From assembly GCA_022821065.1 (NCBI GenBank), contig JAJEEK010000008.1, positions 62,001 through 126,000 on the forward strand: a DNA stretch of 64,000 bases, given 5' to 3'. Shown here one piece after another: positions 8,332 to 61,677 of this stretch. The notes below the pieces were generated by a model that saw only the letters and a list, made by a program, of their open reading frames with translations, searched no databases and was not told the DNA's origin. Made by a program: the position numbers and the translations under genes. How positions within the stretch are numbered: the stretch's first letter is position 1; every line of letters begins with the position of its first letter. This DNA is from Candidatus Poribacteria bacterium (GTDB lineage: Bacteria; Poribacteria; WGA-4E; WGA-3G).

Positions 8332-10065
8332 ATGGATGCAATAAAAACAGAAATCTATACTATTTTAGAAGATGCGATCCGTGCTGCCGTTGCAGCTGGA
8401 GAACTCGCTATATCCGAAGTACCGACTATTCCGTTCTCACCCACTAAAACGCCTGAACACGGCGATTTCGCTACCCCGATTGCATTAGGACTCGCGAAAC
8501 AGGCGCGGATGGCACCGCGAAACATCGCCGAAATAATTCATAAACACATAGATGCTGATACGCTCGAGCGCATAAAGTCCAATACGCATCCTATCATCCG
8601 CGACATTGAGATCGCTGGTGCAGGTTTTATAAATATCCATCTCTCTGATAACTGGCTCTATGACACACTCCAGACGATCGCGGCGATGCAGGCAGCTTAC
8701 GGCACCAGTGATAACGGGGCTGGAAAGCGGGTGCAGATAGAATTCGTCAGTGCCAATCCGACGGGCCCGCTAAATATTGTCAGTGGACGCGCTGCTGCAG
8801 TCGGAGATACACTCGTCAACCTTCTCAATGCTATCGGCTATGAGGCGATCCGTGAGTTTTATGTCAACGATGCCGGTGGACAGGTTGAACGACTCGGTGA
8901 ATCCATTGATGTCCGCTACCGGCAAGTGCTCGGTGAAGAAGGATTGGAGATCCCTGAGGGCGGCTACCCAGGCGAATATCTCACCGAATTCGCGCAGATG
9001 ATCGTTGAAACAGATGGTGATAGCCATCTTCAACTTCAGGAGAGCGAACGGGTCGCACTATTCCGTGACAAAGGTATCGCACACATCTTGTCGCAACAGA
9101 GAGCGTCCTTAGAACGTTTCAAAGTCAATTTCGATGTCTGGGCAAGTGAGCGAGCGATCCGAGATAGTGGGAAACCGGAGGAAATTATTCAAGCGTTCCG
9201 CGAAAAATCGTATCTCTACGAAGCGGAAGGCGCGACCTGGTTCCGAATGTCAGACTTCGGGGACGACAAGGATTGCGTCGTCATAAGGCGGAACGGTGAA
9301 TATACCTATTTCGTGCCAGATGCCGCTTACCACCGGGACAAGTTTGACCGCGGGTTCAGTACAGTTATTGACCTGTTCGGACCGGATCATCAGGGACATA
9401 TCAGCAGGCTCAAAAATTTCGTGAAAGCACTCGGTTTACCCGACGATTGGCTTGAAATCTCGATCATTCAACAGGTGAACCTTGTTGATGCAGAAGGCAA
9501 AAGGTCAGATATGTCGAAACGTAGTGGACAGTTTCTCACCCTCGATGATCTCATCGACGAACTTGCAGAGGCTGTCGGCGAGCAATTCGCGGTGGATGTT
9601 GCCCGATATTTCTTCCTGATGCGTGCCAATAACACGCATCTCGATTTCAATATGGAATTGGCACTCACGCACGCCAGCGAAAATCCGGTCTTCTATATCC
9701 AATACGCACACGCGCGGTGCTGCAGCATTTTCGAGCAGGGAAGTGAACACGGAATCGTCGCAAAACCGATCGAAGAAGTATCACTAAAGCAACTGACCGA
9801 ACCGATAGAGCATGAACTTATCCGTAAGTTAGCCGAATACCCGTCTATCGTGCACCTGAGTGCGGAGACACGTGAAGCACACCGTGTGGCACACTACTTA
9901 CATGAACTCTCGGGAATTTTTCACCCGTATTATAATCAACATCGAGTCTTGGATTCGGAAGACCTCGAAAAAACGCACGCACGGCTTATCCTTGTGCAGA
10001 GCGTGCAAACAGTATTGAAAAATGGATTGACGCTTTTAGGCATTTCTTCCCCTGAATCTATGTAG
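8332..10065 (+). CDS. argS: Arginyl-tRNA synthetase
   Basis: A 577-residue class I aminoacyl-tRNA synthetase that charges tRNA-Arg in the cytosol. The N-terminal additional domain (Arg_tRNA_synt_N), the catalytic core with EFVSANPTGPL at residues 137-147, and the C-terminal anticodon-binding helical domain (DALR type, from about residue 460) are all recognisable. The usual HxGH signature after NPTGPL is replaced by NIVSG (148-152), and the KMSK region reads DMSKRSGQ (393-400). Otherwise length and conservation are normal, and no second argS is in the window. It has a strong promoter but no clear ribosome-binding site. A 178-bp repeat begins one base after its stop. Confidence 0.95.
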   Translation: MDAIKTEIYTILEDAIRAAVAAGELAISEVPTIPFSPTKTPEHGDFATPIALGLAKQARMAPRNIAEIIHKHIDADTLERIKSNTHPIIRDIEIAGAGFINIHLSDNWLYDTLQTIAAMQAAYGTSDNGAGKRVQIEFVSANPTGPLNIVSGRAAAVGDTLVNLLNAIGYEAIREFYVNDAGGQVERLGESIDVRYRQVLGEEGLEIPEGGYPGEYLTEFAQMIVETDGDSHLQLQESERVALFRDKGIAHILSQQRASLERFKVNFDVWASERAIRDSGKPEEIIQAFREKSYLYEAEGATWFRMSDFGDDKDCVVIRRNGEYTYFVPDAAYHRDKFDRGFSTVIDLFGPDHQGHISRLKNFVKALGLPDDWLEISIIQQVNLVDAEGKRSDMSKRSGQFLTLDDLIDELAEAVGEQFAVDVARYFFLMRANNTHLDFNMELALTHASENPVFYIQYAHARCCSIFEQGSEHGIVAKPIEEVSLKQLTEPIEHELIRKLAEYPSIVHLSAETREAHRVAHYLHELSGIFHPYYNQHRVLDSEDLEKTHARLILVQSVQTVLKNGLTLLGISSPESM

Positions 10066-10243
10066 TTGGCTGTCAGCAGTCAGCAGTCGGCTATCAGCAA
10101 AGAGGTGTTTTTGTAACAATTCACCGAAGCTTGGAGTATCAAGTATCGTAGCACTTATAGAACGTCTGGCAGTTACAAACGTTTTTGGCTGCCACAATGA
10201 TCGTGTAACTTCTGAAGGCTGATGGCTGATAGCTGACAGCCAA
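10066..10243. repeat. MITE-like element with 12-bp terminal inverted repeats
   Basis: TTGGCTGTCAGC (10066-10077) is exactly inverted at 10232-10243 (GCTGACAGCCAA), with further CAG/CTG-rich subrepeats inside each end. The 178-bp element fills the space between argS and the aminotransferase gene. Its inner segment ATCAGCAAAGAGGTG...TAACAATTCACCGA is shared with the insertion at 54495-54587. It encodes nothing and no transposase for it is in the window. Confidence 0.75.
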
Positions 10244-10260
10244 TGACAATAGGAACAAAT

Positions 10261-53348: not shown

Positions 53349-53379
53349 CAACGAAAACTGAGAACTGATGACTGAGAAC

Positions 53380-53434
53380 TTTAACCAACAACTCGACTCA
53401 GTCATAAATGTTAAGGCACGAGTTGTTGGTTAAA
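53380..53434. repeat. Perfect 16-bp inverted repeat before the BatA-like gene
   Basis: TTTAACCAACAACTCG (53380-53395) and CGAGTTGTTGGTTAAA (53419-53434) are perfectly complementary around 23 bases, ending five bases before the ATG at 53440. Upstream lies a CTGAGAACTGATGACTGAGAAC simple repeat. The hairpin could terminate transcription of the transglutaminase gene or hide the next start codon. Confidence 0.75.
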
Positions 53435-53439
53435 ACTCT

Positions 53440-55728
53440 ATGGCATTTCTGAACCCGCTTTTTCTTTTCGGACTCCTCGCCGCTGGTATCCCGCTAATTA
53501 TCCATCTCTGGAATCGTCGTCGTGTTGTGACAATTGACTTTAGTAGCCTGATGTTCCTTATGGCGGCGCATCGTGAAAACGCGCGTCGATTCCAACTCAA
53601 GCATCTTCTGATCCTGCTTTTGCGGATGGCGATCATTGCCCTGATTGCACTCGCCTTAGCGCGCCCGTTTCTGACGCTTGGATTGCCGGTCGCGTCCGTA
53701 CGCGCCAAAACCGATGTCGTTATCGTTTTAGATAACTCTTACAGCATGGCGTACCAAGACGTTGACGGTATCAGGTTTGAAAAAGGGAAGGCTTTAGCAA
53801 CTGATATTCTGGGGACGCTGCGGCACGGTGACAGCGCAGCACTGATTTTAATGTCAGACGTTCCGAATCCGATCTTTCGGCAACTAACACCAGATATCGG
53901 AAGTGTTGTGGCGGCGATTAACGATGCGGAAGTCTCTTACCGTGCGACAAACGTTCAACCGAGTCTCGAACTTGCACACGAAATTCTCGCTGCGTCGGAA
54001 CAATTGAACAGAGAACTCTATCTCATTTCAGACTTCGCAAAAAACGGTTGGGAGAACTGGGATAGGCTCCTTAATCGTTCTGGTGCGCGTGTTTCTCTGA
54101 TACCTGTCGCTGAAGGAGAGTCGCATAACACAAATATTGAAGAGATTCATCCATCGAACCAACTAATAGGCGTATATTTGCCGTTCCAATTAAATGTGAC
54201 GACCGCGAACCATTCGGTCGCACCATTGGCACGGAGCATAATAACGTTGTTTATTGGAAGCGAGAAACAGAAAACTGTGAGTTTTTCAGCGGCAGCTAAC
54301 GAATCACTGAATACGAGTTTAACATACAATTTTTCTACACCTGGAACACATACGGGTTATTTTTCATTAACATCGGATCGGCTTAATATTGACAATCGGC
54401 GGTACTTCGCCTTGGATGTTGTCGGTGAAGTGCGTGTGCTTTGCGTCGGAGAACAGACCGAATACCTCACATTGGCACTAAATCCAGATAAAAATAGCCG
54501 TCAGCAATCGGTTTCCGTCAGCAATCAGCAAAGAGATTTTCTTAACGCCTCACCGACAGCCGACAGCCGACAGCTAACAGCCGATACAATGATTCTGCCG
54601 ACGCAATGTACACCTAATCAATTTGAGAGTTTCCCACTTGAAGATTACGATGTTATCATCTTAGCGGATGTGCCGAAGATGACACGTCAAACCGATGCGC
54701 AGCTTCAAGCGTTTCTCCGGCACGGCAAAAGCGTCATCGCGTTTGTAGGTAGTGGCAGCGAAGCGGAGAGTTACAACCAATTTAGCGATGTTTGGATGCC
54801 TGCTGAATTCGGGGGTATACTGAGATGGACACCGCCACAGCGGGTTCGTACGTACCAAGAGACGCATCCTATATTTGACATTTTTCAGAGCGAAGGATTT
54901 TCTACACAGTACGCACCGCAGTTTTACAGTGGTGTGGTGCTGCGTCCTACGCCTGAATCAAAAGTCATCGCACGTTTCGGCGATGATACACCTTTTCTAA
55001 TTGAACGGAGCGAGGGGACAGGTACTGTCCTTTTCTACAACGGTGGACTATTTGCGCAGCGAAACGGCACTCCTAATGCTGGTGCCGGACCTTCCAGAGC
55101 AACGACTTATACAAATGATCTGCTTGTTAATCCGTATTTCCTTCCAATCCTACAACAGAGCGTGCTTTATGCAGCGACGGCCAATAACAATCTTTTAGCA
55201 TGGGAAGGACATATCGGCGACACCTATACAGCGAGTTATCCGCAAAGTGGCGGTGGAAAAGCGTCTATTCGCCTAAAGAGCATAGGTGGCGAATGGAACG
55301 ATGCTACCTCAAAACCTGATGCATCCGAGATAGATGATAGCATAGTGGTGCCAATTGCTGAAGATGGTACACTGCGGTTCCAAGACATAGAACGTCCCGG
55401 TATCTATCAGGTTGAGGTGCAAACGCAAAACAGAATCCAACGGGATTTCTTTGCAGCTAACGTTGACACCACCGAAGGCGACTTAACAAGGATTCCATTG
55501 GAACGAGCCGCAGCGCGAGTCGGTGCCCAAACAGCAACAGATCAGGAGACCGATGGAGTAGCGATAGAAGCCGACGCTTACAATATCAATCGACACGGTA
55601 GGGAAATTTGGGGCGAATTGCTGATCTTAGTTGTTTGCCTTATGCTTCTTGAAAGTTATCTCTCGAACCGGGGGACTCACTCGCTAATGGGACCGGACGA
55701 AAATGCGCTGATCGCAGGTGAAGTATAA
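53440..55728 (+). CDS. BatA-like vWA membrane protein, carrying an in-frame repeat
   Basis: A 762-residue inner-membrane protein with the BatA N-terminal double-TM hairpin (FLNPLFLFGLLAAGIPLIIHLWNRRR), a vWA domain with MIDAS DVVIVLDNSYSMAYQD near residue 92, a long periplasmic part, and a C-terminal membrane segment (LLILVVCLMLLESYL). BatA proteins act with AAA+ MoxR and DUF58 partners in envelope quality control; those partners are not adjacent. A foreign block, SRQQSVSVSNQQRDFLNA then SPTADSRQLTADT, is inserted near residue 355. The start lies five bases after the hairpin and no clear Shine-Dalgarno is seen. Confidence 0.83.
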   Translation: MAFLNPLFLFGLLAAGIPLIIHLWNRRRVVTIDFSSLMFLMAAHRENARRFQLKHLLILLLRMAIIALIALALARPFLTLGLPVASVRAKTDVVIVLDNSYSMAYQDVDGIRFEKGKALATDILGTLRHGDSAALILMSDVPNPIFRQLTPDIGSVVAAINDAEVSYRATNVQPSLELAHEILAASEQLNRELYLISDFAKNGWENWDRLLNRSGARVSLIPVAEGESHNTNIEEIHPSNQLIGVYLPFQLNVTTANHSVAPLARSIITLFIGSEKQKTVSFSAAANESLNTSLTYNFSTPGTHTGYFSLTSDRLNIDNRRYFALDVVGEVRVLCVGEQTEYLTLALNPDKNSRQQSVSVSNQQRDFLNASPTADSRQLTADTMILPTQCTPNQFESFPLEDYDVIILADVPKMTRQTDAQLQAFLRHGKSVIAFVGSGSEAESYNQFSDVWMPAEFGGILRWTPPQRVRTYQETHPIFDIFQSEGFSTQYAPQFYSGVVLRPTPESKVIARFGDDTPFLIERSEGTGTVLFYNGGLFAQRNGTPNAGAGPSRATTYTNDLLVNPYFLPILQQSVLYAATANNNLLAWEGHIGDTYTASYPQSGGGKASIRLKSIGGEWNDATSKPDASEIDDSIVVPIAEDGTLRFQDIERPGIYQVEVQTQNRIQRDFFAANVDTTEGDLTRIPLERAAARVGAQTATDQETDGVAIEADAYNINRHGREIWGELLILVVCLMLLESYLSNRGTHSLMGPDENALIAGEV
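54495..54587. repeat. CAG/CTG-type repeat inserted in frame in a coding region
   Basis: About 93 bases inside the BatA-like gene. The middle ATCAGCAAAGAG..TTTTCTTAAC...TCACCGA matches the inner part of the element at 10066-10243, and both ends are made of GTCAGC/ACAGCCGAC subrepeats in inverted orientation. Translated, it gives the low-complexity PTADSRQLTADT-type stretch. Confidence 0.7.
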
Positions 55729-61470: not shown

Positions 61471-61497
61471 GGTTGTCTCCTTTTTGAGTCGATTTAC

Positions 61498-61677
61498 TTA
61501 TATAGAGTCCGTTTAGATTGAAAAGGATAGTACAAAATACAACTTGCGCCATTCTTTCCACAAATGGGCACAAATAGACAGGAAAACCAAAAATGGAACG
61601 GTAATTTCCGAGGCTGCCTATCAGATTTGTCTATATAGAGTCCTCTTAAACCAAAAGGAGAGTAAAAAACACAAAAA
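61498..61677. repeat. Two direct repeats of about 46 bp
   Basis: TATAGAGTCC followed by an AT-rich AAAAGGA stretch occurs at 61498-61543 and again at 61632-61677, about 134 bases apart. The copies share TATATAGAGTCC, AAAAGGA and AGTA blocks but differ elsewhere. No gene is seen between 61471 and 61711. Confidence 0.5.

Follow-up and report, generated by a model that had tools for sequence, protein, structure and literature searches.

A palindromic repeat translated in frame in batA of Candidatus Poribacteria has a history decoupled from its gene

Palindromic repeats inserted in frame in genes are known from Rickettsia and Wolbachia, and other small mobile repeats have been considered in the same light (PMC2229807, PMC10969869); linkers and loops have been suggested as neutral sites for copies of REP elements (PMC3733652). 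Repeats of this sort have been described, mainly from Rickettsia and Wolbachia, as a route from non-coding DNA to protein. Here we describe a palindromic element that lies in frame in a batA gene of a Candidatus Poribacteria MAG, and compare its history to that of the gene around it. The close relatives used for comparison, from a named collection, are likewise Candidatus Poribacteria MAGs, and the Poribacteria of this study are sponge-dwelling symbionts. MAG assemblies may contain errors; one filled batA locus (L066) stands in a chromosome-scale assembly. Positions are those of the window, that is, the whole stretch of 64,000 nucleotides that was analysed.

The batA copy and its repeat family

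The host gene (53440-55728, forward strand) encodes a BatA-like VWA protein of 762 amino acids, as judged from its open reading frame, from Pfam matches (BatA, 7e-20, in the N-terminal region, and VWA_2, 8e-14) and from orthologues, which were found in 59 of 60 relatives. Alignments and the codon listing delimit an inter-domain linker of 35 codons between ALNP and ILPTQC (54487-54591, forward strand), which is the unit that varies between species. The element occupies 96 bases of this linker (54493-54588, forward strand; residues 352-383), and is recognised by a covariance model match and by a sharp drop in divergence at both of its edges. A sequence-only reading had placed a mobile repeat at 54495-54587, which is right to within 2 bases, and had stated that it keeps the frame near residue 355; indeed, the 762-aa reading frame is open throughout and intact across the insert. 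On the same strand, the element consists of a 5' arm of degenerate heptanucleotide repeats of the TCAGCNN type (54493-54528), seen also in other copies, a shortened palindromic core ATCAGCAAAGAGATTTTCTTAACGCCTCACCGA (54524-54556), the exact pattern of which is unique in the genome, and a 3' arm CCGACAGCCGACAGCCGACAGCTAACAGCCGATACA of GCCGA-type heptads without TGA stops on the coding strand (54553-54588). The inverted arms are imperfect in this copy. Trained on 20 other copies and not on the batA copy, a covariance model matches 54503-54586 in the window with 42.2 bits (E=1.8e-9), and the block is a member of a repeat family.

The same reading had linked the block, through its inner sequence and its ends, to an element at 10066-10243. 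The inner sequence is common to both: the 12-mer ATCAGCAAAGAG is present at 54524-54535 and at 10093-10104, the two blocks belong to a 27-nt repeat family with 81% identity, and the model matches both. As to the ends, other copies have the same types of arm, and these arms are built of 7-nt repeats. This second copy (10062-10248, no strand assigned) is apparently intergenic and has a longer inner segment; its inverted arms (10061-10097 and 10212-10248) are 76% complementary, and the model matches it at 10071-10244 on the reverse strand (E=3e-6) and at 10073-10151 on the forward strand (E=6e-4). The short word alone is unremarkable in the 64 kb, with 13 matches at up to 2 mismatches for 9.2 expected, but TCAGCAAAGAG occurs 65 times in the genome and its reversed control 3 times; a chance match of short words is rejected by the covariance model and these genome counts. 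Across copies the plan is constant: degenerate TCAGCNN units form one arm, GCYGANA units form the other, and the core between them, CAGCAAAGAG...CCTCTTTGCTG, has a palindromic middle. The 132 model matches on both strands of the genome correspond to about 78 distinct copies, a lower bound, as 150 of 2550 candidates were scored. The consensus fold over mixed copies is weak (8 pairs) because core lengths differ between copies, and folding was done on single copies instead. Of the 35 genomes of the same genus that were scanned, most are enriched in the short core word; in most other families it is near control level.

Other repeats were seen along the way. An inverted repeat with 28-nt arms (82%) lies across the batA start codon (53368-53446), and a similar repeat, AACCAACAACTCG...CGAGTTGTTGG, adjoins an element copy in L041. 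Short repeats stand at 1000-1053 and 61491-61657 of the window (GTAGGAGCGAGTTTTACTC, twice, 30 nt apart, and TATATAGAGTCC). A longer, well-conserved repeat that links TCAGCAAAGAGGGGCGTTCGCTGCGCTCACTG with GGTTAGCACAATGTTTCTTACC in L015, L020, L022, L027, L037, L046, L048, L050 and L052 is perhaps the most recently active family.

In an AlphaFold2 model of BatA built from 41 sequences, residues 352-381 have pLDDT below 50, with well-predicted regions on either side, so that the insert occupies a linker that is predicted to be disordered. A structure search with this model found VWA proteins and, at lower strength, partial matches to other folds; it was uninformative on the insert. The model has further low-confidence stretches at residues 543-554 and 616-632, and the sites of other repeat-like BatA inserts in other species (near 545 in L097; near 618 in L083, L085 and L091-L095) coincide with them. 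No Rfam match was found in the window or in five element loci, and a known RNA family was rejected on these searches.

Copies in other genes and avoidance of stops

Among the 72 copies whose flanks were examined, 16 have an open frame of some kind around them and 11 lie in ORFs of more than 300 aa. All 11 are in frame, and nearly all of the host ORFs have Pfam domains: BatA, MnmG, UvrA, NAD synthetase (NadE), a penicillin-binding protein with the insert inside its transpeptidase domain, an FG-GAP/ASPIC protein, a TPR protein, a Reg_prop propeller, a TPR/FG-GAP protein and a PD40/Omp85 protein, the remaining ORF having a weak Pfam assignment. Orthologue comparison covered 4 of the 11 host genes (BatA, MnmG, UvrA and NadE) and showed that orthologues without the element exist for all four. 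The MnmG insert is found only in this genome, and 29 orthologue loci are without it; at the junction about 9 nt of host sequence are gone, with no duplication seen between filled and empty sites. In UvrA and NadE the element stands where relatives carry other linker sequence. Two observations concern the same sites in other genomes: in the MnmG gene of G002 (L211) another palindrome, GTAG...CTAC (GTAGAGGCGAGATCGCCTCGCCCCTAC), is in frame in the same loop as the heptad element of the present genome, and in L261, L262 and L271 GGATGGAAG / CTTCCATC units make up the NadE linker, apparently from another heptad family that is translated in frame.

Copies inside genes avoid stops. The GCTGA unit makes TGA stops on the coding strand and the GCCGA unit does not; the ratio GCCGA:GCTGA is 31:5 in in-gene copies versus 74:77 elsewhere (p=5.6e-5), and the coding-strand frame is open in 11 of 11 in-gene copies versus 27 of 56 others (p=0.0016). 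Since many copies outside genes are also stop-free on one strand, in-frame survival may be merely a filter. The coding-strand RNA folds worse than the other strand in 9 of the 11 in-gene copies (p=0.006), which may reflect selection against mRNA hairpins or be a by-product of stop avoidance.

Insert history at the batA site

The batA insert is present in 16 of 38 genomes of the genus, once in each and always at batA. The remaining orthologues of the genus carry related repeats, different repeats or an older linker at this place, and in outgroup families the linker is 11-19 aa long; no distant homologue with the same residues at the insert site was found. That the block had been added to the gene is borne out as regards insertion, but the element has taken the place of an older linker, about 24-29 aa long and of unrelated sequence, that several relatives have. 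This older linker, found in L067, L073, L079-L082, L086, L088, L091, L092 and L139, is alignable across the tree. When the linker is left out in building the gene tree, carriers of the insert and of the older linker are intermixed on it, with 7 changes of insert state, at least 5 of them forced by supported branches. The batA linkers of L085, L087, L089 and L096 end in a further in-frame palindrome (for example CCCGCGAGCCTATAGAGGCTCGCGC in L085), so that several repeat families use the same batA site, and those of L083 and L084 carry TAACTGA-like units reading LITDN.

The insert and its flanks do not share a history. Synonymous divergence (pS) between clades drops from 0.496 (15 codons on the left) to 0.165 in the linker and climbs again to 0.688 (15 codons on the right). 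Homologous recombination of the ordinary kind between species, moving the linker together with flanking DNA, would account for the same allele in related Poribacteria and for alleles mixed across the gene tree, and batA itself supplies homology in both donor and target. Yet with ordinary tracts the flanks should have become similar too, which is not the case: the 15-codon flanks show no reduction, and at 5-codon resolution only the first window on the right is slightly low (0.275). Moreover, near-identical linkers occur between fully diverged flanks, L065 and L066 differing by 13-40% in the flanks and by 3% in the linker, while L065 and L067 differ by 0-30% (mostly about 10%) in 10-codon flank windows and by 58% in the linker. 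We therefore regard such recombination as unlikely.

Less probable still is a single ancestral insertion held by nucleotide-level selection (an RNA hairpin or a binding site in batA) and lost in some species. It would fit the low synonymous divergence of the insert and the strong fold of its non-coding strand (-46.5 kcal/mol, z=-7.9), but the coding-strand RNA folds only weakly (z=-2.2). Under such descent linker distance should rise with flank distance, but the two are uncorrelated (r=-0.05), whereas in nine control segments taken from this gene the correlation is 0.60-0.90. When descent along the gene tree was simulated at several rates and rate variabilities, a correlation so low arose in 0-0.25% of runs and a between/within ratio so low in none, so that neither a slowed nor a rate-variable clock reproduces the data, and vertical descent of the insert is rejected in simulation. 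Selection-slowed evolution of the DNA could explain part of the low divergence of the insert, but not the absent correlation. Variable linker sites are mostly singletons (27 of 38), and the older linker of the insert-free species is homologous among them and of normal divergence, and would have to have been regained. On the linker data the AU test rejects the gene tree, though modestly, with about 105 sites (p=0.025; SH p=0.058), and the insert itself has about 100 nt. The ancestral insertion is thus already disfavoured. The batA insert is patchy among species, star-like and decoupled from its flanks, which shows that it did not simply descend with the gene. This decoupling of the insert from the surrounding gene is new beyond the sequence-only reading.

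A fast-evolving low-complexity linker that came to resemble the repeat by chance or by heptad slippage in place is hardly credible, for although heptads slip easily and the linkers of L076 and L077 have lost 21 nt (three heptads), the family match extends to the core that the arms enclose, a core common to 16 genomes, the order arm, core, arm recurs in eleven unrelated ORFs, and the reading is refuted by the model match together with these unrelated host genes.

Proposed explanation and known systems

We consider it likely that a multi-copy palindromic repeat is translated where it is tolerated, and that its batA insert has been exchanged or re-acquired between species without the flanks. The block is a copy of a non-autonomous repeat that is multi-copy in this Poribacteria genus, and degenerate 7-nt repeats make up the arms on either side of its palindromic core. 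To survive within a gene, a copy would need a TGA-free orientation, a length that keeps the frame and a tolerant loop or linker, and a surviving copy would become a translated, probably unstructured segment. At the single batA site the insert would have been acquired or exchanged repeatedly between species, the most economical pictures of the route being that it inserts at a target or that a very short DNA fragment replaces the linker. It may mainly be tolerated selfish DNA and a linker spacer, with no specific protein function. A bolder form of this explanation, which we put forward tentatively and hold to be rather less probable, is that of a homing linker cassette: a segment of about 100 bp that each carrier genome has once, at the batA site alone, and that repeatedly replaces the ancestral linker in different species and brings no flanking DNA along. 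Its mechanism, targeted or working with very short fragments, would be one that has so far not been described for palindromic repeats.

Searches for a carrier or donor were negative. No donor copy was found elsewhere in the same genomes at E<=1e-12; viral contigs contained no exact 20-mer of the insert and no batA relative; no phage match was found, and the plasmid search gave only short matches of 27-35%, in Streptomyces plasmids. An external carrier (virus, phage or plasmid) was accordingly set aside. A Y1/RAYT transposase as mobiliser was also rejected, as none of the five Y1_Tnp genes of the genome has an element within its fetched flanks. The batA site provides natural filled and empty pairs at one site in close relatives, with an insert history unlike that of its gene, which makes movement of the repeat directly testable by comparison of strains.

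Among known systems, MITEs (ERIC, Correia/NEMIS, YPAL) are likewise non-autonomous inverted-repeat elements that are sometimes fused in frame (PMC2229807). Terminal inverted repeats are present here (10061-10097 / 10212-10248; imperfect in the batA copy), but they are imperfect heptad arms rather than defined terminal repeats, and no target-site duplication or TA ends were recognised. REP and BIME sequences (GTAG- and CGTC-tagged) are also small palindromes for which in-gene copies have been reported, notably in uvr genes (PMC3733652). The Poribacteria element is longer than their 20-40 bp palindrome and does not lie beside Y1 transposase genes, and aligned copies, read by eye, have no GTAG or CGTC end tag. 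A 7-nt unit is also that of the heptanucleotide direct repeats (TAACTGA) of Beggiatoaceae, Cyanobacteria and Bacteroidetes, with one strand stop-free and the other with stops (PMC4679880); in our element too the 7-nt units are in tandem and one strand can be translated without meeting a stop, as arm words and open-frame counts show. Those repeats, however, are reported as intergenic, many upstream of starts, whereas here two inverted arrays flank a palindromic core and some copies are in genes.

The Rickettsia palindromic elements and the protein-coding palindromic repeats of Wolbachia are palindromic, about 100-150 bp long, and lie both between genes and in frame in conserved genes (PMC2229807, PMC10969869, PMC3733652). 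Set beside these descriptions, and beside the many copies per genome that mark the Rickettsia elements, the element has a copy of 96 nt in batA, about 78 copies, inverted heptad arms and 11 of 72 copies in frame. It differs in its phylum, in its heptanucleotide-array arms and in that one insert is common to species without its flanks. The sequence-only reading had proposed protein evolution by a non-coding repeat of the Rickettsia kind; its functional side stands. The three checks that it called for (homologues, a genome-wide search and secondary structure) all speak for it, and neither of the observations that it named as refuting was made. We would say that the element works like those of Rickettsia, claiming no membership among them. 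That this process also occurs in a distant phylum, with arms of heptanucleotides and with enzymes like MnmG and UvrA as hosts, suggests that proteins change repeatedly by this route, which leaves its mark on linkers and loops.
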